From Bacteroidales bacterium (GTDB lineage Bacteria > Bacteroidota > Bacteroidia > Bacteroidales > UBA7960), in contig SLQX01000088.1 of the NCBI GenBank assembly GCA_007131245.1, positions 1 to 32,614 on the forward strand: a stretch of DNA of 32,614 nt, read 5' to 3'. Position 1 is the first letter of the stretch. Each line of letters begins with the position of its first letter. The notes beneath the pieces are model-generated. The model had not been told where the DNA came from. It made no database searches and saw nothing but the letters and a program-made list of their open reading frames with translations. The translations under genes were made by a program, and so were the position numbers. Of the stretch, positions 7,145 to 23,473 are shown piece by piece.

Positions 7145-8599
7145 TCAACTGTCCTCCATGTTTGTATCTGTGTTTTTATTTTTCTTCATAAGCATATTTA
7201 GGCCATATTGTAAAAATTCACTAATAGTATTTCTGAGGCTGAATATCAGCATGAAATTATAACCTACCAGCAAAATTATTCTTAGGGTGTAGTTGTCAAA
7301 ATGCACTGATGTGAATAGTCCTAGTCCGATTAGCATGACCGGAACCCAAAACTTAACCAGTACTCCCTTACGGAACCCAAAGGATTTGTAAAATCCGAAG
7401 AATATATGTAAAGGGAGACTGATAACTATGATACCCAGCGTGATAAAACTTATAATGTGCATGATAGAAAACAAACCGCCAATTAATACCAGTGCAATGG
7501 TAAGTGCAGAATTCACAAAATTTACAATGGTCATATTGCGCTCTTTCCGGTATAAAATGTAAACCGGACTTGTGGTTTGAAGCATGGATTTAAATAACAA
7601 AATGATTGCAATGTACGGCAAAAATACAGACACCCCTTGCCATTTTTTACCCCATAAGATAAGTACCAGTTCACTTGGGAAAAGTAGTAAAATAAGTATT
7701 ACGGGCATATTAAACAGGGTGATGATTTTTAATATGTCCAGGTATTCTTTATTGGCATCCCCATTTTCGGTCAATAATTTTTTCAAAGAAGGCAGCAAAA
7801 CAATACTGAAAATTCCGGTAATAAGCTTTGTAGCAATCATTATAAACCTAAATGCCCTGTTGTATAGACCCAGGTCGGCTTCAGAATAAAACCTACCTAC
7901 AATCACTTTGTCAGCATTACCCGACCAGTAAGATACCAGCTTGCTGATAGTAAGATGCCCCATAAGTGAGCGTATTTTGCGCATTGTTCTCAGGGTTGCT
8001 CTTATTCCATAAAGGCGGAAAGGGATTTTTACCTTTCTGCGCAAATATATCAATTGAAACAAAGGTCCCAAGACCAATGGGAAAATCAGTGACCAATACG
8101 AAAATCCCAGGGCAGCCAGAATAATGGTGAAAATTATTTGAAAACCAGTGCCAAATAGATTGGCAATCCCTATGCTTTTGAACATCAGTTTTTTGGAAAG
8201 GATGGCATAGGGTATATAGGTAAATGCATCGAAAATAAAACGTAACGAAATGAGTATTGTAGGCAGTATCAGTGCTTCATTATCAAAGAAATAGGCTATA
8301 GGATAGGCCATTCCCATCATTATCAAAGCAAGAAACATTCCCAGCCAAACAGATAGGCTGTAAAGGTGCCTGTGAAAAGTATAACCATAATCACTCCTTA
8401 CCACTGAGGCGCCCAGCCCTACATCTGAAAAAAGTTGTACAAACCCTGAAAAAACCAGGATTATAGCTACAAACCCATATTCTTCAGGAAGCAGCAGCCG
8501 GGATAGTATAATGGTTGATAGAAACTCAAGCCCTTGTGAGATGTATCTATAGATGGCAAAGCTGGAAATGTTTTTAAAGAATGTTTTTTTAAAGGACAT
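7145..8599 (-). CDS. wzx: Polysaccharide flippase, Wzx/MOP family
   Basis: This 484-residue protein has about 12-14 membrane segments. It fits the oligosaccharide flippase family (polysaccharide_synt/MVF group), which moves the undecaprenyl-linked repeat unit to the periplasm. Signature segments include YRYISQGLEFLSTIILSRLL and LLPEEYGFVAIILVFSGFVQ near the N-terminus, then SYWSGNADKVIVGRFYSEAD and LGLYNRAFRF in the middle, the latter typical of WzxC/lipopolysaccharide flippases. I chose ATG at 8599 (MSFKKTFFKN). The frame can be extended to a TTG at 8650, but that adds a lysine-rich stretch with no family resemblance. It lies between a GT2 and the Wzy-like polymerase, as expected for a Wzx/Wzy locus. 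Confidence 0.88.
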   Translation of the reverse strand: MSFKKTFFKNISSFAIYRYISQGLEFLSTIILSRLLLPEEYGFVAIILVFSGFVQLFSDVGLGASVVRSDYGYTFHRHLYSLSVWLGMFLALIMMGMAYPIAYFFDNEALILPTILISLRFIFDAFTYIPYAILSKKLMFKSIGIANLFGTGFQIIFTIILAALGFSYWSLIFPLVLGPLFQLIYLRRKVKIPFRLYGIRATLRTMRKIRSLMGHLTISKLVSYWSGNADKVIVGRFYSEADLGLYNRAFRFIMIATKLITGIFSIVLLPSLKKLLTENGDANKEYLDILKIITLFNMPVILILLLFPSELVLILWGKKWQGVSVFLPYIAIILLFKSMLQTTSPVYILYRKERNMTIVNFVNSALTIALVLIGGLFSIMHIISFITLGIIVISLPLHIFFGFYKSFGFRKGVLVKFWVPVMLIGLGLFTSVHFDNYTLRIILLVGYNFMLIFSLRNTISEFLQYGLNMLMKKNKNTDTNMEDS

Positions 8600-8766
8600 C
8601 GAGTGGTGTTTTGTCTTTTTGGAATTGTTTTTTGATCTGATGTAGGGCAATCAAACGGGCTGATCCAGCTGCGAATGGTCTTTGTTTTGTCCTTGTTTAC
8701 TCATAAAAGATATGATTTGCTTTTAATAAACAGTGCTATGTATTCTGCCATGCAAGCAAGGATGTT

Positions 8767-11951: not shown

Positions 11952-14900
11952 TTACTTTATAATTATTCTTTGTGTATGAGATTCTTCTTCTTTGGTAATT
12001 TGCATAAAATATATACCCGGGGGAAATTCGGAAATATTTACTTCATTATGGCCGAGTGCCAAAGTACCTTTCCGTATCATTATGCCACTGGATGAGTATA
12101 CTTCATAAGAAGCCGAATTGTTGATGTTTACGCGAAATCTGCCATCCGATGGGTTTGGATAGGCCACAATCTGAGAGCTGTTTATTTGGCTGAAATCCAG
12201 GAGAGCCTCCAGCTCTATATCTCTTGTTACCACAAACTCATAAGGATTTTGCCTGGCTACTATCTGACCTGCTGAATTTCTCCATCCAACAAAACGAATA
12301 TTTGCTGGCAGCGACACTTCCAGGATGGCTTTTTCATTTTCTTTATAAGTTCCCGAGCCTTTGATTTCTACATCAACATTCCTTTGATCTTTAGGTTGAC
12401 TATAGAAAGCATTTACATTAAAGTTACCCCCGGAACGTCTAAAGAGGGCCTCCACCGTTTTGTTTTCTGTTGCAGTAAATTCATAGATGGGATTGTTGTG
12501 GATGTATTCGCCATCTACAAACCAACCCCGGAATGGGAAACCACTTTGTGAAGGGACGGCTTCAAGCATAACATTATTGCCATGAACATATTCTCCACCA
12601 CCTGTTACAAACCCTAATCCATTGGGAGTGGCTTGGGTTTCAATTAAAACAATTTGTTCAGCGGGCTTAAAATGTGCTGTAAGTTCAACAGACTGCTGAA
12701 CTGAAATCAAATATACTGATTCTGTTGAGACGATATTGTCTCCAATTGTCCAGTGTGAAAATGTATACCCTGAGTAAGGTATTGCTGTTACCCTGATGGT
12801 ATCATTGTAATTATAAATACCTTCTCCGTATACCTCTCCGGCATCTGTGGGTGAGGCTACCAAAGTTACCTCATGTTCCTGTTTTAAGAAGTTTGCCGTA
12901 ATAGTTTTATCTGATTCTACCACATATTCTATGATGTTGTCTGAGGATAAAACTTCTCCGCTTTCGAATGTCCAGTTATCAAAATAATAACCCTGGTTGG
13001 GGCTTGCTGTCAATACTGTTGTTTCTCCCTGATGGTATTCCCCTGCACCGGAAAGTGTTCCTCCCTGTGTAGGTTCTGCGTTTAATGAAATGGTGTGGAT
13101 AGTGAACTCTTTAATTAATGTTACAGAAACCATGGTATTTTCCGATACTTCCAGTATGGTTACTTCTGTGGGGAGATAACCTGTTTTAGATACCTGGTAT
13201 TCATAAATACCTTCTTCAACGCCTGATATATTATAATCTCCTGGAGGGTTGGTGTTATCATCAAAGGTAACTGTGGCTTCTGTAAGTTGGTTGTCCTCTT
13301 CATCTGTAATATCAAATGTCACTGTAAAAGTGGGTTGTGGCTCAGGATTCATCTCTACAGAAATGGTAGTGTCCCCTGTTACATTTACTTCTGCTTCAGG
13401 AGCTTCCTGGTATCCGGGAGCAGAAACAGTGTACAGGTAATTCCCTACGGAAATGCCTGAATATGAGTAATCGCCGGGCTCATTGGTCAGGTTGTTAAAG
13501 GTAATTACGGCATTACTTATCTCGCTACCACCTGAACCTGTAATGTGAAAACTGACTGTGTAAGTTTCTGGTGGCAGGGGAGTCATGACAACTTCCAGGG
13601 TGGTGTCCTCATCCACCAAAACCCCCTGTGAGGAAATATCTTCAAACCCCGTTGCGCTGACATGGTAGTCGTAATATCCTTCAACGACTTCTTCAAAAGT
13701 ATAGTCACCGGTAGGGTTGGCGTTACCGTCAAAATTGACAATGGCATCGTTAATGCTTACGCCTTCCAGACTTTCAACCACAAATGAAACGGAGTAAGTT
13801 TCTGGTGGCAGGGGAGTCATATTCACCTGCACTGTCAGATTGTTTTCAAGTGTAATTATTGTTTGCGCAACTTCCTCGTGATCGGGTGCAGTGATGCTAT
13901 ATGTATAGGTATCCTCTTCCAGATCAGCGAAATTGTAGTTGCCAGGATCATAAGTTACACCATTTAGCGTAATGACCGCATTGTCGATGGTGTTTCCCTC
14001 GATGCAATTGATGTTGAAGTTCAGATCGTGGGTAGGCACGCTGGTGGGGGTCATCACGACTTGGATTACCGTGTTCTCATTTATGGATAAATCTGTTTGT
14101 GAAATATCATCATAACCGGTTGCTGTAACTTCAAAATCATAATTCCCTTCCGCTACATTATCAAAAGTATATTCTCCCTGGGGTTGAGACAGGTTGCCAA
14201 GGGTAATTTGTGCATTCTCAATATTGGCTCCCTCTTCATTTTTTACATCAAAAGTAACCGTGAAAGAAGGGTTGTCGTGGCATACCGGAGTAAACAGATC
14301 GTTGGTGTCAATGTCGGAGCCATACAATTCCAGATGAGGGTTTTGGTCAAGAAAAGTTTCGTATTCGTTTTGTGAGTAAAACCTTTGGTTGGTTTCATTG
14401 AGTTCAGCCCCATTATGAACCACCAGTTTACCCTCTTCTCTTAAGATATGATTATCTCTGATGCCATAGGGCTCAGGCCTGTTGGCATGGCCGTCATAGG
14501 TGTCAATGGGAAATTCCAGTCCAATACCATTGACCACATTTTTTCTGAAAATGGCATCAGGTCCTGCTACCCAGCGAACCGCAGCACCACCCCGGCCAAT
14601 TTTGGGTGCATAAAATGTGTTGTTTTCCACAACGATATTTTCTGCTTTATCACCGTCAGAAAGTGAATAGTTAAGCATTAAACCATACTTCCAAATGGCA
14701 TTGCTCTTGTCAAGGATATTTCCAGCCATGTAAAAGTCTTTTAATTCGTTGTACAGATAGATGGACTGGATGATATCACCAGTTGACTCATTAGAGTCTT
14801 CACCATCCATATTAATTTTATGGTACCAGTTTCTGATAACTTTGATATTATGACCACCAATGCCAGAGCCATTGTTTCTGAAGTAAGCAATTTCGTTGTT

Positions 14901-15488
14901 GTAGATAGTAATATTAGTGCCATGATACCCCAGACCGGTTCGCGGATAGTATCCCGTATCATCGTTTTTCCCCACTACTTTGCAGTAAGCAATGGTAATA
15001 TCGTGGGTGTCAGCGTAGTCGTCAACATTGGGTGAGCCAAAGCTGACAATACCGTCATACCCGCCACTACCTGATTTGGTAATATGCAAATTACGGAAAG
15101 TGGTGTGCCTGGAATGTTGTGGAATAACAAACTGTGAATCGGGTGTCGATTCAATAATTGGTTTGGGACCTTGACCATAGGCACCTACCAGGTTATTGTC
15201 CCACACTTTATTAATGTTTTCATGCAATACAGTGCCTCTTTTTATTAAATAGGCTGTATGGGGTTCTATGTCCAGACCTTGTAAGGTATTGTAAGGGTTT
15301 TCTATACTTCCATCGCCATTACTGCCAGATGGATCAATGTAAACTATATTATTAAAGTCTTCTGCAGAGGCAATGGTGGGTATATCATAGGGGGGGCAAT
15401 TGGCGTTTGCGTTAGAAAAACTTACTAAAAGAAATAGAAGGATACTTATTGTTGGAAAACTAGTGGTTGATATTTTGTTGGTTTTCAT
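11952..15488 (-). CDS. Secreted modular beta-helix protein with two repeat arrays and T9SS sorting domain
   Basis: This 1,178-residue protein has a signal peptide at 1-29 (hydrophobic ISILLFLLVSFSNANA). Residues about 48-395 begin YIDPSGSNGDGSIENPYNTL, the usual entry of right-handed parallel beta-helix proteins, with repeated short turns such as NITIYNNEI and NIVVENNTFY. Residues 407-793 hold five roughly 77-residue carboxypeptidase-regulatory/PEGA-like beta-sandwich repeats (GDYTFEEVVEGYYDYHVSAT type, linkers PLPPETY). Residues 797-1098 hold four InlB-B-type repeats (GYYFDNWTFESGE, TANF type). Residues 1105-1178 are a T9SS sorting domain (AYPNPSDGRFRVNI, GIYFMQI, QRIIIK). It should be exported and surface-attached or released. 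It lies between fcl and the epimerase, so it may bind, cleave or epimerise the locus polysaccharide; no catalytic residues can be assigned. Confidence 0.88.
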   Translation of the reverse strand: MKTNKISTTSFPTISILLFLLVSFSNANANCPPYDIPTIASAEDFNNIVYIDPSGSNGDGSIENPYNTLQGLDIEPHTAYLIKRGTVLHENINKVWDNNLVGAYGQGPKPIIESTPDSQFVIPQHSRHTTFRNLHITKSGSGGYDGIVSFGSPNVDDYADTHDITIAYCKVVGKNDDTGYYPRTGLGYHGTNITIYNNEIAYFRNNGSGIGGHNIKVIRNWYHKINMDGEDSNESTGDIIQSIYLYNELKDFYMAGNILDKSNAIWKYGLMLNYSLSDGDKAENIVVENNTFYAPKIGRGGAAVRWVAGPDAIFRKNVVNGIGLEFPIDTYDGHANRPEPYGIRDNHILREEGKLVVHNGAELNETNQRFYSQNEYETFLDQNPHLELYGSDIDTNDLFTPVCHDNPSFTVTFDVKNEEGANIENAQITLGNLSQPQGEYTFDNVAEGNYDFEVTATGYDDISQTDLSINENTVIQVVMTPTSVPTHDLNFNINCIEGNTIDNAVITLNGVTYDPGNYNFADLEEDTYTYSITAPDHEEVAQTIITLENNLTVQVNMTPLPPETYSVSFVVESLEGVSINDAIVNFDGNANPTGDYTFEEVVEGYYDYHVSATGFEDISSQGVLVDEDTTLEVVMTPLPPETYTVSFHITGSGGSEISNAVITFNNLTNEPGDYSYSGISVGNYLYTVSAPGYQEAPEAEVNVTGDTTISVEMNPEPQPTFTVTFDITDEEDNQLTEATVTFDDNTNPPGDYNISGVEEGIYEYQVSKTGYLPTEVTILEVSENTMVSVTLIKEFTIHTISLNAEPTQGGTLSGAGEYHQGETTVLTASPNQGYYFDNWTFESGEVLSSDNIIEYVVESDKTITANFLKQEHEVTLVASPTDAGEVYGEGIYNYNDTIRVTAIPYSGYTFSHWTIGDNIVSTESVYLISVQQSVELTAHFKPAEQIVLIETQATPNGLGFVTGGGEYVHGNNVMLEAVPSQSGFPFRGWFVDGEYIHNNPIYEFTATENKTVEALFRRSGGNFNVNAFYSQPKDQRNVDVEIKGSGTYKENEKAILEVSLPANIRFVGWRNSAGQIVARQNPYEFVVTRDIELEALLDFSQINSSQIVAYPNPSDGRFRVNINNSASYEVYSSSGIMIRKGTLALGHNEVNISEFPPGIYFMQITKEEESHTQRIIIK
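12195..13100 (-). repeat. Four tandem InlB-B-type repeats in the beta-helix protein
   Basis: Four units of about 72-76 residues (protein positions about 797-869, 871-942, 946-1018, 1020-1098) share the order: beta strand, G-x-G-E/I-Y, strand, GYxFxxW or similar, then a closing ANF/AHF/ALF. They are divergent at DNA level, so this is an old duplication rather than recent expansion. Confidence 0.75.
13110..14270 (-). repeat. Five tandem beta-sandwich repeats in the beta-helix protein
   Basis: Five units of about 75-78 codons (protein positions about 407-482, 486-559, 563-637, 641-715, 719-793) share: x-V-x-F-x-I, N-A-x-I/V-T-F/L, P-x-G-D/N-Y, G-x-Y-x-Y-x-V-S/T-A-x-G-Y/F, then T-x-x-V-x-M. A 27-base DNA block is identical at 13560-13586 and 13794-13820, encoding the P-L-P-P-E-T-Y linker. 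It implies recent duplication or gene conversion between neighbouring units. Confidence 0.85.
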
Positions 15489-16447: not shown

Positions 16448-17560
16448 TTAACTATACTGCCTGTATGCATTATAAACATCCCGAATCCCTTGTTCCAGAT
16501 GAATAGTGTACTTCCAGTTCAGGGAGTTTAATAAAGAGACATCCAGTTGTTTTTTGGGTGTTCCGTCTGGTTTGGATGTATCCCATGCTAACTCTCCCCT
16601 GAAACCGGTAATTTCTTTCACTTTTTCGGCCAGCTCTTTGATGGTAATATCTTCCCCGGTGCCAATATTAATGTGTGTTTGTTTTAGCTGGTTATAAAGT
16701 TCCTCACCACTGGTATTAAGTATGATGTGCACGCAGGCATCTGCCATGTCATCCACATGTAAAAATTCCCGGTAAACCTTGCCACTTCCCCACAGGCTAA
16801 TAGAAACAGTGGGCTTTGATCCTTCGTTGTCCTTGTAATGTATGCCCAGCCTGGCTAAAGTTTGAATGATATCCTTTTTTTTACTGTCTTTGACAAGTTC
16901 ACCAATGGGGTTTTTGTTTAAGTCTTGGGCAATGGTTGGCCAGTCGTTGTTCTCCAGGCATTTCCCCAGGTGCATTTTTCGGATTAATGCAGGCAATACG
17001 TGCGATTTTTCCAGATCGTAATTGTCGTTGGGCCCATAAAGGTTGGTTGGCATTACCGAGATAAAGTTGCTACCGTATTGTTTGAAATAGCTTTCGCACA
17101 TTTTTATCCCAGCAATTTTGGCAATGGCATAAGGTTCATTGGTATATTCAAGCGGGCCGGTAAGCAAGTATTCTTCCTTTAGTGGCTGGGGGGCATGTTT
17201 GGGGTAAATGCATGAACTGCCCAGGAAAAGAAGTTTATCTACACCATACTTCCATGATGCATGGATTACATTGTTCTGTATCATAAGGTTTTCGTAAATA
17301 AACTCAGCCCTGTAAGTGTTGTTGGCAACAATACCCCCAACTTTGGCAGCTGCCAGAATGACCAGGTTTGGTTTTTCCTTACTGAAAAAGGCGTCTACCT
17401 CAGGCTGGTTTCTAAGATCCAGTTCATTGGATGTGCGTGCCAAAATGTTTTCGTACCCTTTAAGGTTTAGGTTTCTTTTTATGGCAGAACCAACCATTCC
17501 TTTATGACCTGCAATAAATATTTTTTTGTATTTTCCCATAATCGGATCGGTTATAGTCAT
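16448..17560 (-). CDS. fcl: GDP-L-fucose synthase
   Basis: This NADPH-dependent epimerase/reductase converts GDP-4-keto-6-deoxy-mannose, the Gmd product, to GDP-L-fucose. It shows [15 protein letters not shown] (GxxGxxG), the [13 protein letters not shown] region, [27 protein letters not shown] and [15 protein letters not shown] (YxxxK), then [13 protein letters not shown]. At 370 residues it is longer than the roughly 320-residue E. coli enzyme because of an insertion around [20 protein letters not shown], which I recall as common in Bacteroidota homologues. The ATG at 17560 overlaps the gmd stop (ATGA), suggesting coupling; an internal ATG at 17539 is the alternative start and matches the family N-terminus better. 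Confidence 0.93.
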
Positions 17561-18603
17561 CTGTTTTTTTGGATAGCCTTTTTGTAATCAGCTTCAACCA
17601 TTGTCCTGACAAGGTCTTTGAATTTTGTTTTGGGTTGCCAGCCCAGTTTCTTTTTGGCTTTGGAGTAATCGCCAATAAGTAGTTCTACTTCGGTAGGTCT
17701 GAAGTACCTTGGGTTGATACCCACAACCTCTTTCCCTGATGATTTTAATTTTCCGGTTTCTTCTTTACCACTTCCCTGCCAGATGATTTCTTCACCAAAA
17801 AAGCCAAATGCCTCTTCCACAAATTCTCTCACGGTATGGGTTTCATTGGTTGCCAAAACAAAATCTTCGGGGGTGTCCACCTGAAGCATTCGCCACATCC
17901 CCTCCACATACTCTGGTGCATAGCCCCAGTCTCTTTTTGCGTCCAGGTTTCCAAGTAAAAGCTTATTTTCAAGCCCTGCCATGATGCGGGCCACTGCCAC
18001 ACTGATTTTTCGGGTTACAAATGTTTTGCCTCTTCTTTCGCTTTCATGATTAAACAATATCCCGTTGCAGGCAAAAAGGTCATACGCTTCACGGTAGTTG
18101 ACCACAATCCAGTAGGCATAAAGCTTGGCAACAGCATAAGGGCTCCTGGGGTAGAAGGGTGTATTTTCGGTTTGGGGAACCTGTTGAACCTTGCCGTATA
18201 GCTCGGAAGTGGATGCCTGGTAAAACTTTGTTTGAATCCCTGTCTCTTTAATGGCATCCAGGAATCTCAGGGTACCAACTCCGTCAACCTCTGCTGTGTA
18301 TTCGGGAACTTCAAATGAAACCTGCACATGACTTTGGGCCCCCAGGTTGTATATTTCATCAGGTTTTATCTTTTCCACCAAGCGGTTTAGGTTGCTGGAG
18401 TCTGTTAAATCGCCATAATGCAGAAAAAATCGTTTGTCAAGTAAATCTTTTTGATGATATATGTGATCGATACGGAACGTGTTGAATGAACTGGCTCTTC
18501 TTATGATTCCGTGTACGTCATATCCTTTCTCAAGAAGAAGTTCGGTTAAATAAGAACCATCCTGGCCGGTTATACCTGATATTAATGCTACTTTTTTACT
18601 CAT
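17557..18603 (-). CDS. gmd: GDP-mannose 4,6-dehydratase
   Basis: This 348-residue enzyme carries out the first step from GDP-mannose to GDP-L-fucose. The family signature is nearly complete: [104 protein letters not shown] (catalytic YxxxK) and [17 protein letters not shown]. Length is normal for the family. It starts at ATG 18603 and overlaps fcl by four bases. The pair could also feed other GDP-6-deoxyhexoses, but with fcl next to it fucose is the clear product. Confidence 0.97.
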
Positions 18604-19684: not shown

Positions 19685-20422
19685 TCAGCGCTGTTTTAGT
19701 GCGAGAGCCAGGACGTGGTAGAAAAAAATAAAATTTCCTGCCACATATCTTTTCCACATGCGTTTGGGTTCCAGGAGCAAACGATAAATCCATTCCATTC
19801 CTGCTTTTCTCATCCATTTTGGGGCGCGGCTCACTTCACCTGAAATAAAATCCAGGATCGCTCCTCCGGCTATAATTAATTTTACATTGGTAAACTGTTT
19901 TTTATTTTCATGAGCCCACAACTCCTGTCTTGGGACTCCCATGCCCAACACCAGGATATCTGCTCCTGATGTGTTGATAGATTCTATGATTTTTGGCTCA
20001 TCAGATTTATTAAAATAGCCTGAACTAAAACCGGCTATTTTTAATTGTTTCGTTTTTTCTCTGGCTACCTGGGCGGCTTTTTCTGCAATGCCTGGCTTGC
20101 TCCCCAAAAAATAAATGCTTTTCCCTTTTTGGGCTGCAAAAGTAAGAATTTGGGGAATCAAATCGGTGCCATTCAAGTTTTCTTTGAAACGAACCTTGCT
20201 AAAATAAGATGCAATCTTTAAGCCTATTCCGTCGTTCAGCAATAAGTCAGCTTCTTCAAGTGCTTTATAGTAATGAGGGTTTTTTTGTGCAATATTAAAG
20301 CAATGAGCATTTAAAAAATAAAGTGTGTGCGGCCTTTTGTTTTGAAGAAATGTATCACATTTATTGAAAACATCTTCCCGGGTGAATGCATGAATTTGTA
20401 CATTGAAGAAGGTTTTTTTCAT
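19685..20422 (-). CDS. WecG/TagA/CpsF-family glycosyltransferase
   Basis: This 245-residue GT26-family protein adds the second sugar to a polyprenyl-diphosphate-linked monosaccharide. It shows LYFLNAHCFNIAQKNPHYYK, ADLLLNDGIGLKIAS (about 69-83, with the conserved catalytic Asp before GxG), the NGTDLIPQIL site, SIYFLGSKPGIAEKAAQVA, DILVLGMGVPRQELWAHEN (G-x-P-x-Q-E, about 156-174), and RAPKWMRKAGMEWIYRLLLE (about 203-222) with the following P-K-R-M. I start it at ATG 20422, preceded by AGGGA about 10 bases upstream; a GTG 10 codons upstream (20452) is less likely. Acting right after the initiating transferase at 22016, it probably makes the lipid-linked disaccharide on the cytoplasmic membrane. 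Confidence 0.92.
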   Translation of the reverse strand: MKKTFFNVQIHAFTREDVFNKCDTFLQNKRPHTLYFLNAHCFNIAQKNPHYYKALEEADLLLNDGIGLKIASYFSKVRFKENLNGTDLIPQILTFAAQKGKSIYFLGSKPGIAEKAAQVAREKTKQLKIAGFSSGYFNKSDEPKIIESINTSGADILVLGMGVPRQELWAHENKKQFTNVKLIIAGGAILDFISGEVSRAPKWMRKAGMEWIYRLLLEPKRMWKRYVAGNFIFFYHVLALALKQR

Positions 20423-20772
20423 TGTGTTGTCCCTGTTTTTTACAGCCGTCACGATGATTTAAGTTAGGTTTTACAGTTATCTGTTATTGTATCAACAAAA
20501 ATGTAAAACAACGTTTCTATAGATTTGTTTTTTTTGTAGACTAAAAATGTTTTTTTACTTGGTAAAATCCTTGATTTTGAGTGCATAGGCTTCCAGGGTT
20601 TCTGTTTTTATGGCTGACAGATGCTTTTGTTGGTTTTATGCATTATGATTTAACGATTACATTTGCAAAGACAATTTTGCTGACTAATTGAGTGAAGTTT
20701 TCGTATATAAGCTGCCAGGTTTGCCTTGCAGCATGTTTTTTGCTATATGTTATTGCCGGGGTAACATGAAAC
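20423..20772. other. Divergent intergenic region
   Basis: This 350-bp AT-rich spacer separates the minus-strand WecG-type gene and the plus-strand YdcF-like gene, so it must hold two divergent promoters. A weak plus-strand candidate is TTTG at 20720-20723, then 20 bases, then TATATGTT at 20744-20751. Nothing else is recognisable. Confidence 0.3.
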
Positions 20773-21864
20773 ATGATTGTAAAAAAGGATTACCGCATAG
20801 CAGAACTAATATGCCAGAAACGAATTCTCAAAAGAAGAGCCATGAACGATGATTTTACAAATAATTTTATCATGCGGTATTTGAGGCTACTTGTAGTATT
20901 TGTTTTATTTTTGAGTATTACAGGTTTGTTGTTCTTTACGTTCATGCCAAACTATCTGACTTTGGATCGACGGGCAGTAGCGAATGTTTTGGTTGTGGAG
21001 GGATGGATTCCTGACCAGGGATTAAGGAAGGCATATGATGAGTTTACATATGGAAACTATGATTTTATGCTGATTACAGGAAGCAGACTTCAGGAAGGGG
21101 TTACCTTGTATATTAACTCCTATTTAATCTTTTATCCACATGACAGTTTATATAGGAATAGGGGTTTGTATGATGAGGAGCAGATTTTTGAGATGCATAT
21201 AACCAGTACATTGGGTAAAAAGGATTCGGCTCATTTTGTGTTTTGGGTGAATGATCATCCTGTTACAGATTATTACACTACTGAAAATCAGGGTTCTTTT
21301 TCTGTTAAATGGAACGGTGATTTACAGGATATTGATTCAGTAATGGTACAATATGATAATGATAAGGTTGATGATGGGGGGGATCGGAACCTGTTTATCC
21401 AATCCCTTACGCTCAATGGAAAAAGCCTGATCCTGGATTATGCGGATATGATGCTAGATAGGGGGAGACCCATGGGAAAATATCGTTGGAACGTGACAGC
21501 CCATTCTTATGCTGAACAGGCTTCTTATTATTTCCTGGACCGGGGATTGACAACGGATGAGGTAATTGCGGTAACCAATAATTTTAAAAGAAAGAGACGA
21601 ACCTTTGGTAATGCAATGGCGCTGAAACAATGGATGGAAACTAATGGTCTGCAGCCAGCAGGTATCAATGTAGTAAGTATGGATTATCATTCCAGGCGAA
21701 CCTGGCTTACTTATAATCGTTTGCTTGGCCAATATACAGATGTAGGAGTCATTAGCTCCCATGACCCTGGTTTTAGTGATTCACCTCAAAAAAAGTATTA
21801 CGGTATTATCAGGGAAAGCCTGGCTTTGGTCTATTATGGTGTAGTTATTCTTCCCTGGGTTTAG
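20773..21864 (+). CDS. YdcF/ElyC/SanA-like (DUF218) membrane protein with inserted carbohydrate-binding-like domain
   Basis: This protein has up to 363 residues. A membrane anchor lies at about 35-57 (YLRLLVVFVLFLSITGLLFF). VANVLVVEGWIPDQGLRKAY (about 69-88) and YDFMLITGSRLQ match the DUF218 core strands, and SYAEQASYYFLDRGL through SSHDPGFSDSPQKKYYG (about 245-344) completes that core. Between the halves, about 105-225, sits a foreign-looking block with FVFWVNDHPVTDYY, WNGDLQDIDSVMVQYDNDKV and DRNLFIQSLTLNGKSL. This resembles Ca-dependent xylan-binding (CBM36/60-like) modules. A hydrophobic C-terminus (about 348-361) could be a second anchor. The DUF218 role is unclear; SanA/ElyC affect envelope precursors. 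The start is uncertain: ATG 20773, 20842 or 20872. It is the only plus-strand gene in this part of the locus. Confidence 0.82.
   Translation: MIVKKDYRIAELICQKRILKRRAMNDDFTNNFIMRYLRLLVVFVLFLSITGLLFFTFMPNYLTLDRRAVANVLVVEGWIPDQGLRKAYDEFTYGNYDFMLITGSRLQEGVTLYINSYLIFYPHDSLYRNRGLYDEEQIFEMHITSTLGKKDSAHFVFWVNDHPVTDYYTTENQGSFSVKWNGDLQDIDSVMVQYDNDKVDDGGDRNLFIQSLTLNGKSLILDYADMMLDRGRPMGKYRWNVTAHSYAEQASYYFLDRGLTTDEVIAVTNNFKRKRRTFGNAMALKQWMETNGLQPAGINVVSMDYHSRRTWLTYNRLLGQYTDVGVISSHDPGFSDSPQKKYYGIIRESLALVYYGVVILPWV
21085..21447 (+). other. Inserted CBM36/60-like domain region within the YdcF-like gene
   Basis: Residues about 105-225 of the YdcF-like protein interrupt the DUF218 fold just after the ITGSRLQ strand. 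The segment is all-beta in character and contains the Y-D-N-D...D-R-N-L and S-L-T-L-N-G-K pattern. I associate this pattern with calcium-dependent xylan-binding domains appended to many Bacteroidota secreted enzymes. The family match is from memory and not computed. Confidence 0.55.
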
Positions 21865-22015: not shown

Positions 22016-23473
22016 CTATCTACCCGTTGCAAAGAGCAAAGCTGAAATGGTTTTAAAGATTAACCGAACATCTTTGGTTAGCGACCAATTGTCGATATAG
22101 TTCAGGTCCATTCGCATCCACTTCTCAAATTTTATATCGTTTCGGTGGGGCATAATTTGCCAGGTACATGAGATGCCCGGCTTTACCGAAAGTCTTCTGA
22201 GCTGCCAACGTTGGTATTGCTGAACTTCTGATTCCAGTGGTGGGCGGGGGCCAATAAGCGACATTTCACCGCGGGCAACATTATAAAGTTGGGGCAGCTC
22301 ATCCAGCCCTGTTTTCCTGAGGAATTTGCCCACAGGGGTAATCCGTGGGTCGTTTTTCAGTTTAAAAGTGGGTCCGTCCATTTCATTTTGGGCTCTGAGC
22401 TTTTCCAGCATTTGCTCGGCATCTTCCCGCATGGTTCTGAACTTGTATAGCTTAAACTTTCTTCCCCTTAAACCCACTCTTTCCTGGGCAAAGAGAGCAG
22501 GCCCCCTGGATGTAAGTTTTACCACCATTGCTATGAGTAATAGAAAGGGAGAAAGCAAGATGATAGCTGTTGAAGAAAAGAACACATCGGTAATGGTTTT
22601 GATGTCATGGGCCAGCTTGCGTGATGGAATATCTACCAGGGTGAGTTTGCCGGCATCATTGACTGTTTTTAGCTGAACACGCTCAGGGGCGAGAGTGGAA
22701 GTAGCCGTTTGCACCCTGAAAACAACTCCGATTTCATTGGAGTCTTTAATGATTTTTCGCACCTCGCCCTGGTCTATGTTTTTCTTACAGTAAAACACTT
22801 CATCTACTATCTGGCTTTCCAGGATATAACTGATATTTTCTGTGCCAGCGATGATGGGGATTTCATCTCCAAACTTTTTCCTTAAAAGGTTGGATTTGGT
22901 AATGATGGCCCGGATTTTAAATCCCCAGTCTTTCTGTTCGTTGAGTTTGTCAATGAATTCATGGGAGCAGGCGTCTCCAATTATCACAATGTTGCGAAGG
23001 TTATAGCCGTCAGTACGGTAGACTCGCAGGAAATGGATGGTTAGTATCCTGAGTCCAAGTGTAAAAATAAAAGCCAGATGTACATTAATGAATATCAGGG
23101 TGGAGGGAATAGCTGTCAGGCCCAATGCAAATTTAACAACCATTAGACTGATGTAGATTAAAAAGTAACCCCTCAAAAAGATCAGACCAGCACTAATATA
23201 CCTTTGAGCTCTGGGCAGCATAGCCATGGATGTAACTTGTGAGAGTACAAACCAGAAAAATACCAGGAAAAAGCTGAAAAACCCAAACTGGTAAATATTG
23301 AAATCCCAGGCAATGCCAAAATGATTAAATATTACACGAGTAATCGCATATGAGAGTGGTATGGTAAAAACAACTATTAAAAACTCAATAAAATACAGGA
23401 GCCATTTCAGGTTTATCTGATAATGGGTCTCCAGTTTTTTAAGTTTATTGAAAAAGGTTACTGATTTTAACAT
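22016..23473 (-). CDS. Undecaprenyl-phosphate sugar phosphotransferase (polyprenyl glycosylphosphotransferase)
   Basis: This 485-residue initiating enzyme of the WbaP/WcaJ/PssY type moves a hexose-1-phosphate from a UDP-sugar to undecaprenyl phosphate. Four or five N-terminal membrane segments span about 20-165. A CoA_binding_3-like Rossmann domain begins at NIVIIGDACSHEFIDKL (about 172-188). Another membrane segment lies at about 295-318 (IITDVFFSSTAIILLSPF region). The catalytic bacterial sugar transferase domain follows: GPALFAQERVGLRGRKFKLY, KFRTMREDAEQML, LRKTGLDELPQLYNVARGEM (D-E-L-P-Q), SLIGPRPPLESEVQQY and RLSVKPGISCTWQI. It starts at ATG 23473. As the first minus-strand gene after the housekeeping block it marks the start of the EPS locus; a promoter candidate lies just upstream and a terminator just downstream. 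Confidence 0.94.
   Translation of the reverse strand: MLKSVTFFNKLKKLETHYQINLKWLLYFIEFLIVVFTIPLSYAITRVIFNHFGIAWDFNIYQFGFFSFFLVFFWFVLSQVTSMAMLPRAQRYISAGLIFLRGYFLIYISLMVVKFALGLTAIPSTLIFINVHLAFIFTLGLRILTIHFLRVYRTDGYNLRNIVIIGDACSHEFIDKLNEQKDWGFKIRAIITKSNLLRKKFGDEIPIIAGTENISYILESQIVDEVFYCKKNIDQGEVRKIIKDSNEIGVVFRVQTATSTLAPERVQLKTVNDAGKLTLVDIPSRKLAHDIKTITDVFFSSTAIILLSPFLLLIAMVVKLTSRGPALFAQERVGLRGRKFKLYKFRTMREDAEQMLEKLRAQNEMDGPTFKLKNDPRITPVGKFLRKTGLDELPQLYNVARGEMSLIGPRPPLESEVQQYQRWQLRRLSVKPGISCTWQIMPHRNDIKFEKWMRMDLNYIDNWSLTKDVRLIFKTISALLFATGR

Follow-up and report, generated by a model that had tools for sequence, protein, structure and literature searches.

A DUF218 Protein Split by a CBM36/60-Type Module in an Exopolysaccharide Locus of Bacteroidales

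Overview

A stretch of 32,614 nucleotides of Bacteroidales DNA (contig SLQX01000088.1; in the following, "the window") carries, within a locus for exopolysaccharide (EPS) biosynthesis, a gene for a membrane-anchored DUF218 protein whose domain is interrupted by an insert. By computation, this insert is a β-sandwich of the type found in carbohydrate-binding module (CBM) families 36 and 60, nested in the DUF218 domain. The nested two-domain architecture recurs in relatives from the same order, the motifs of both domains are conserved there, and genes with the insert are enriched beside EPS genes. We moderately favour the reading that the product is a membrane-anchored, periplasmic factor of the ElyC kind, which would grip nascent exopolysaccharide via a calcium-holding module.

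The gene is present at the place and with the length originally predicted. Its features and the basis for each assignment are as follows:

20773..21864 (+), complete gene for a membrane-anchored DUF218 protein with a CBM36/60-type insert, 363 amino acids (aa), ATG start
20878..20943 (+), predicted N-terminal membrane helix, residues ~36–57, preceded by a K/R-rich segment (hydropathy and model)
20980..21084 (+), N-terminal half of DUF218, residues 70–104 (E76, W78 and G103 in 17/17 members)
21085..21501 (+), insert, residues ~105–243, ~139 residues (alignment with compact relatives and with SanA and ElyC of Escherichia coli)
21229..21426 (+), Pfam CBM60 match inside the insert, residues 153–218 (PF16841)
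21358..21393 (+), putative calcium-binding loop ND-x6-DRNL, residues 196–207 (conservation; location compared with the CBM36 loop)
21502..21759 (+), C-terminal half of DUF218, residues 244–329 (Pfam match and model)
21601..21603 (+), T277, equivalent of T125 in the putative catalytic triad of SanA (alignment with SanA)
21688..21690 (+), H306 of an H-x-x-R motif, equivalent of SanA H149 (alignment with SanA)
21814..21816 (+), E348, proposed counterpart of SanA E182 (paired by eye through the I-R-E motif, not in the alignment)

The Nested Module

The original prediction held that the DUF218 core is split by a glycan-binding-like block ending at about residue 225. The split stands; the end was set too short, since the alignment gives an insert of ~105–243, of which the aligned sandwich part spans ~108–226. 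The window protein matches the CBM60 profile with E 8.7e-5 and 23.4 bits (26.3 in a second run; curated cut-off 28.2), and at E ≤ 0.01 the profile matches 13 of the 17 members of the insert-bearing family (window included), with a best value of 1.1e-11. The curated cut-off is exceeded by seven members of the DUF218 type. The profile check proposed for the insert came out in its favour.

In the full-length model, which was built from a six-sequence alignment and has a mean predicted local distance difference test score (pLDDT) of 70.9, the insert is all-β and lies within an α/β domain. When the insert alone is compared with solved structures, the top matches are entries of the second domain of XynJ, which we take to be a CBM36 (2dcj, Z 8.8; 2dck, 8.6; 6kjl, 8.5; 6kka, 8.5), and the next CBM36 matches are 1w0n (Z 8.4), 1ux7, which holds calcium and xylotriose (8.2), and 7ay3 (8.2). 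Together, CBM36 and XynJ entries occupy ranks 1–3, 5–7 and 10, at Z 8.2–8.8 and root-mean-square deviations (rmsd) of 2.4–2.9. The predicted CBM36/60-like sandwich is thus borne out in that CBM36 ranks first, although other sandwiches lie within one Z unit of it. Proof of the module was not taken from single-sequence E-values or middling Z values alone. Matches found by phmmer to TAL-repeat chains and xylanases among the solved structures were discarded as repeats or short weak stretches.

The motifs quoted in the original prediction are present in the sequence. In the insert model, an acidic loop, ND-x6-DRNL, precedes the last strand and follows the one before it. N196, D204 and L207 of this loop are found in 17/17 insert-bearing proteins, D197 and N206 in 16/17, and R205 in 14/17; over 11 families of the order, conservation within the insert is highest at N196, D197, D204, N206 and L207. 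In CBM36-1, Asp367 and Asp372 hold the ligand-site calcium with their side chains (PMC9165906; this paper and those cited below are drawn on in excerpt). The placement of the ND-x6-DRNL loop in the model is consistent with that of the CBM36-1 calcium loop, the match being one of loop position and not of residue-level superposition.

The DUF218 Core and the Predicted Membrane Anchor

As predicted, the flanks of the insert model as a DUF218 fold, an α/β domain that superposes on E. coli YdcF (3ca8) with Z 13.8 and an rmsd of 3.2 over 165 residues across 58–361, the next row being at 7.1. The Pfam DUF218 profile (PF02698) matches residues 245–322 of the window protein with E 0.0015 and 18.8 bits (curated cut-off 27.6), the domain being split by the insert; within the family, it matches 9 of the 17 members at E ≤ 0.01 (window included), at best with 1.2e-8.

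The Thr/His/Glu triad that SanA requires appears to be conserved in the insert family, with the Glu paired by eye (R-I-R-E-F around E182 of SanA, I-I-R-E-S around E348 of the window protein). T277, H306 and R309 are each present in 16/17 insert-bearing proteins, the miss being L040, which is cut by a contig end; E348 is present in 15/17, and is missing from the cut gene L040 and from L081. In SanA, the alanine changes T125A, H149A and E182A abolish complementation (PMC12176290).

Ahead of the DUF218 domain, residues 2–57 form a helix in the full-length model, the hydropathy of the window protein has its maximum of 2.7 at residue 39, and the first 36 residues hold nine K/R versus four D/E; a weaker hydrophobic peak (1.54) begins at residue 345 near the C-terminus. 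This pattern suggests an inner-membrane anchor with the DUF218 domain in the periplasm. The start of translation may be M24 (20842), because most family members have shorter N-termini.

NCBIfam holds no family for the window protein, and neither single-sequence pattern searches with it against genome contigs and viral contigs nor tblastn against plasmids returned anything useful. At E ≤ 0.01, the window gene is the only CBM60 match of the host genome. The host also has a separate DUF218 gene of SanA-like sequence (L113:1354-2004 (+), contig C167), which meets the DUF218 cut-off; the insert-bearing protein is therefore an addition and not a replacement.

Distribution and Origin of the Insert Form

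In the order sample, the window protein as single query found matches at E ≤ 0.01 in 29/295 genomes, and a nine-sequence profile found matches at E ≤ 1e-8 in 48/393. The open frames fall into three forms: a compact one of ~205–235 aa; a second one of 405–421 aa, in which the compact core carries a C-terminal extension; and a third one of 320–371 aa, with roughly 120–140 or more extra residues at a single point. On one side of the entry point is the T-G that follows the second strand, on the other the S-x-A helix. Of the 393 sampled genomes, 16 carry the insert form; together they have 17 such genes, of which one is truncated at the edge of its contig, and represent 11 families. A single-protein search of a phylum-wide sample matched 2/395 genomes, namely the host and G014, which has a compact form outside the order, and a further scan of genome contigs gave five loci, four without the insert and one with it (L041, identical in sequence to the G684 gene).

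The original prediction had named, as a finding that would overturn it, an insert that is ordinary in most DUF218 proteins. The aligned compact relatives, as well as SanA and ElyC of E. coli, have no insert. That the block is an artefact or a common DUF218 elaboration resembling a module by chance, as the two single-sequence Pfam matches below their cut-offs would allow, is exceedingly improbable; it is contradicted by the recurrence of the insert with conserved motifs in 17 genes, the compact relatives without it, the CBM60 profile matches and the fold evidence.

On a tree of the DUF218 core with 16 insert and 23 compact rows (L040, cut by the contig end, was left out), the insert rows cluster, with three changes versus 12.6 for shuffled labels. 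A tree with the insert rows in one clade fits as well (approximately unbiased test, p-AU 0.52), and several insert rows sit on long branches. Separate origins, as the three changes of the free tree would have it, were set aside given the equally good one-clade tree; one origin of the insert is not rejected by the core sequences.

Genome G712 holds two insert copies ~25 kb apart on one contig (L081:9320-10306 and L082:9691-10653). One of them, L081, has a degenerate ND/DRNL loop and no equivalent of E348.

A separate observation concerns proteins in which a compact DUF218-like domain is followed by a C-terminal DUF1684 domain according to Pfam (L044:10055-11278 (+) and L022:547-1812 (-)). Proteins of similar lengths in L019, L021, L025, L029 and L030 point to a second recurrent architecture in the family.

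Exopolysaccharide Context

The location in an EPS locus beside the initiating transferase was correctly predicted, with the glycosylphosphotransferase on one side of the gene and a WecG/TagA-type glycosyltransferase on the other; the gene does stand alone on the plus strand, being oriented opposite to both neighbours. The relevant genes of the window are:

22016..23473 (-), polyprenyl glycosylphosphotransferase, the EPS initiating transferase, convergent with the gene (TIGR03025, above cut-off)
19685..20452 (-), WecG/TagA/CpsF-family glycosyltransferase, divergent, with a gap of 320 bp (family profiles)
17557..18603 (-), GDP-mannose 4,6-dehydratase, gmd (family profiles)
16448..17560 (-), GDP-L-fucose synthase-like protein (NF047922, 454.9 bits, under the cut-off of 500)
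7145..8650 (-), Wzx-type polysaccharide flippase

The locus also holds a pyruvyl transferase-like gene and several glycosyltransferases. Within the same locus lies a gene (11952-15488 (-)) for a protein of 1178 aa with a sorting tail of the type IX secretion system (T9SS), a carboxypeptidase-regulatory-like part and InlB-type repeats.

Across relatives, marker proteins (glycosylphosphotransferase, Wza, Wzc, Wzx, MBOAT and WecG) were sought within ±10 kb, in 241.5 kb of flank for the 17 insert genes and 287.0 kb for 20 compact genes, many flanks of both groups being cut by contig ends. The control consisted of 20 compact loci from the list of the order sample; G014, being outside the order, and G532, a GH5 cellulase, were left out, and the compact loci G699, G726, G762, G442, G755, G751 and G688 lie outside the control. 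Among called genes, a marker is found near 9/17 insert genes versus 0/20 compact genes (Fisher p 2e-4). Since the marker proteins were partly taken from insert loci, self-hits favour those loci, and a Pfam-only test with PF02397 and PF02563, counted by hand, is the fairer one: it gives 6/17 versus 0/20 within 10 kb (p 0.005) and 7/17 versus 1/20 within 20 kb (p 0.014). Related genomes are not independent, for which a count by family is a partial remedy; here the Pfam markers lie within 10 kb in 6/11 insert families versus 0/13 compact families (p 0.003). Compact loci G571, G607, G509, G496, G478, G622, G594 and G526 have neither PF02397 nor PF02563 on the same contig. Because longest open reading frames are poor gene calls in the GC-rich loci (62% G+C) of genus g382, which is treated below, the marker search was repeated by tblastn on bare DNA, with the same counts of 9/17 insert and 0/20 compact loci and with 0/13 for g382. 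Insert genes are thus enriched beside EPS genes, and the fusions, for which a survey beside glycosylphosphotransferase genes had been suggested, recur near such genes or those for Wza or Wzc. Some have close neighbours on the same strand: in L078 a Wzc-like gene with GNVR and AAA_31 domains directly adjoins the insert gene, and in L036 a flippase gene lies 12 bp away.

Seven of the unmarked genes are L035, L037 and L040 (one genus), L039 and L077 (one genus), L079 and L080. L032 is also counted as unmarked, with PF02563 ~42 kb and PF02397 ~52 kb away on the same contig; its flank holds a glycosyltransferase and a nucleotide-sugar dehydrogenase-like gene with no marker within reach. In genus g237 (L035, L037 and L040), a small regulator-like gene and a shared metabolic block take the place of EPS genes; the regulator-like gene of L035 has an HTH_1 domain according to Pfam, and those of L037 and L040 are similar by eye.

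The three g237 members accord with a reading that we consider quite unlikely, in which the module binds another glycan, such as peptidoglycan, the lipopolysaccharide core or plant-type xylan, and so tethers the protein to the wall or a substrate, with EPS genes nearby only by coincidence. It can draw on the description of CBM60 as targeting β-1,4-glucan and β-1,4-xylan (PMC4725902), on the occurrence of CBM36 in a xylanase (PMC9165906) and on the tie of SanA to peptidoglycan synthesis (PMC12176290). However, EPS markers occur in 7 of the 11 families of the insert form, the predicted inner-membrane anchor would place external xylan out of reach, and the host has no second CBM60 match.

MBOAT-type genes lie within 10 kb of 4/17 insert genes, and in L076 and L081 the gene follows, on the same strand and with short gaps, an MBOAT gene and a gene for a protein without Pfam match. 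Such an arrangement would suit a polysaccharide-tailoring enzyme, whose DUF218 domain modifies the polymer while the module positions the substrate, by analogy with AlgX. The binding module of AlgX positions the substrate in alginate O-acetylation. A further point in its favour is that YdcF, the closest solved fold, is reported to bind S-adenosylmethionine (AdoMet) (PMC12176290). We hold this reading to be very unlikely: in the window, no MBOAT marker is found within 10 kb either among called genes or by tblastn, and AdoMet is not expected in the periplasm.

An Insert without the Loop in Genus g382

When a profile of the 17 insert-bearing proteins was run against a class sample, 19/395 genomes matched (host included), of which 14 belong to genus g382, with proteins of ~290–340 aa. 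The residue and marker counts for this genus rest on 13 of the 14 genomes (L118–L129 and L132; G983 was left out). The g382 proteins carry an insert at the same place, which is likely homologous to the window-type insert; N196 is present in 1/13, D197 in 2/13, D204 in 0/13 and N206 in 1/13. The DUF218 residues E76, W78, G103, H306, R309 and E348 are found in 13/13 and T277 in 11/13, and none of the 13 loci has an EPS marker within 10 kb. The member L124 keeps RNLFIKDLRINGRN, which speaks for this homology, and the member L118 has no CBM60 match. The g382 proteins were not counted as the same functional type as the group of 17.

The retention of the insert without the loop means that the block can persist without it, which supports a structural role in this genus, so that binding cannot be assumed everywhere. 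Generalised to the window protein, it leads to an alternative that we regard as unlikely, though serious, in which the insert, although derived from a CBM, serves as a structural lid or as a surface for protein interaction. Calcium, where present, would then do no more than stabilise the fold, and the DUF218 domain would have a general housekeeping role in the envelope, such as balancing lipid carrier or peptidoglycan, with no relation to the gripping of a glycan. Besides g382, with its DUF218 residues intact, the eight members of the window group without nearby EPS markers speak for such a lid, as N196 and D204 are kept in 8/8 of them, as does the tie of the insert model with sandwiches of non-carbohydrate proteins. 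Against it stand the acidic loop, which over 11 families is better conserved than any other part of the insert, and the enrichment beside EPS genes, which pure housekeeping hardly explains. The g382 proteins would also fit a loop that is kept where EPS-linked work is done; loop-bearing members outside EPS loci exist.

Proposed Function

In the reading that we favour, an ElyC-like factor gripping nascent exopolysaccharide, the N-terminal helix would hold the protein in the inner membrane, with the DUF218 domain in the periplasm and the CBM36/60-type sandwich inserted in the loop after the second DUF218 strand, behind T102-G103. Through calcium in the ND-x6-DRNL loop, the module would grip exopolysaccharide made by the cell itself, or the lipid-linked precursor of this polymer, and might thereby bring the DUF218 site (E76/W78, T277, H306, R309 and E348) onto the nascent polymer. 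There, the site could act on the polymer-carrier intermediate or throttle the assembly line, as is proposed for ElyC with enterobacterial common antigen (ECA). The proposal goes beyond the computed architecture, conservation and context in placing the domain in the periplasm, in having the module bind calcium and a glycan, in naming that glycan and in assigning a reaction or a regulatory effect; these points we infer. Where a recognisable glycan-binding module lies inside a DUF218 domain, the polysaccharide itself is the ligand to be expected. As a tentative extension, ElyC-type DUF218 proteins may be periplasmic enzymes or brakes on lipid-linked glycans, and, in this group of Bacteroidia, the insert a calcium-dependent sensor of the EPS that the cell makes, through which polymer occupancy feeds back on initiation and export; we consider this possible rather than probable.

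Several observations weigh against the favoured proposal. The CBM60 and DUF218 Pfam matches of the window protein alone are both under their curated cut-offs. The pLDDT of the insert in the full model is mostly 46–69 per ten-residue block and falls to 29–38 at residues 221–240, and a separate model of residues 103–243, built from an alignment of two sequences, has a mean of 66. For the insert model, other sandwiches come within one Z unit of CBM36, and plain Foldseek ranks the sugar-binding domain 6yf6 first (E 5.1e-4) and the CBM36 entry 1w0n at 4.6e-3. A profile search of solved structures with the insert yielded no CBM36 or CBM60 entry, and with the insert and then with the whole family no CBM36, CBM60 or YdcF entry. 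As to context, for 8 of the 17 insert genes the DNA examined shows no EPS marker up to 10 kb away, genus g382 keeps the insert without the calcium-type loop (D204 in 0/13) and away from EPS markers (0/13), and the EPS-located copy L081 has a degenerate loop. Finally, the compact G014 gene, outside the order, lies ~3 kb from a Poly_export gene; a DUF218 gene near EPS genes therefore does not need the module.

Other CBM60 Fusions

CBM60-type modules were also seen in other kinds of proteins, all reached through the insert part of the family profiles. One is a GH5 cellulase with CBM60 and a T9SS tail (L083). A PL14-like lyase with a C-terminal CBM60 is encoded among glycosyltransferase-like genes in genome G720 (L084:5689-7089 (+)). 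PMT_2 glycosyltransferases with a C-terminal CBM60 were found at L133:1492-3228 (-), with E 3.8e-9, and at L130:1492-3222 (-), with E 0.0015 and below the cut-off; another PMT_2 glycosyltransferase, L134:1519-3210 (-), has a DRNL motif by eye and no CBM60 match. These cases hint that, in these bacteria, modules of the CBM60 type form part of various proteins linked to polysaccharides, including DUF218 proteins, PMT_2 glycosyltransferases and a PL14-like lyase.

Comparison with Known Systems

In the titles and abstract openings that were searched, most subscription papers lying outside the search, no fusion of DUF218 with a carbohydrate-binding module is described; the excerpted text of PMC12419801 names DUF218 once, among EPS-linked domains. 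The best Z matches of the insert are CBM36 entries, the CBM60 profile matches 13 of the 17 members, and the acidic loop lies between the last two strands, as in CBM36-1; in contrast to these modules of carbohydrate-degrading enzymes, the insert is nested inside a membrane-anchored DUF218 protein. CBM60 is reportedly circularly permuted relative to CBM36. The C-terminal lectin-like module of mycobacterial EmbC likewise sits on a membrane enzyme of envelope polysaccharide synthesis (PMC3044687), a build to which the PMT_2 fusions with CBM60 are similar; there, however, the catalytic domain is another one and the module is appended, not nested.

Among DUF218 proteins, YdcF (3ca8) has the same fold as the flanks of the window protein, but is described as cytosolic and AdoMet-binding. 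SanA, which acts in the periplasm on peptidoglycan synthesis (PMC12176290), is similar in its membrane anchor, which is predicted for the window protein, and in T125 and H149, which are aligned to T277 and H306, as well as in E182, matched to E348 by eye; it differs in having no insert, in a sequence identity of 17% and in its tie to peptidoglycan. ElyC shares the inner-membrane anchor predicted for the window protein, the DUF218 domain and the tie to surface-polysaccharide assembly, which gene context suggests for the window protein. It lacks an inserted module, however, and two membrane helices are described for it; the identity is 18%, and the window gene is located inside an EPS locus. ElyC limits phosphoglyceride-linked ECA, for which its authors favour feedback via periplasmic cyclic ECA, possibly through physical contact (PMC8609368), and both ElyC and SanA influence the balance between peptidoglycan and surface polysaccharide (PMC8609368, PMC12176290). 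The simplest synthesis, by analogy, is that the insert-bearing protein would play towards exopolysaccharide the part that ElyC plays towards ECA, a dedicated module making the contact; it thus offers a direct way to test whether the ElyC/SanA family can work by gripping the polysaccharide under synthesis.

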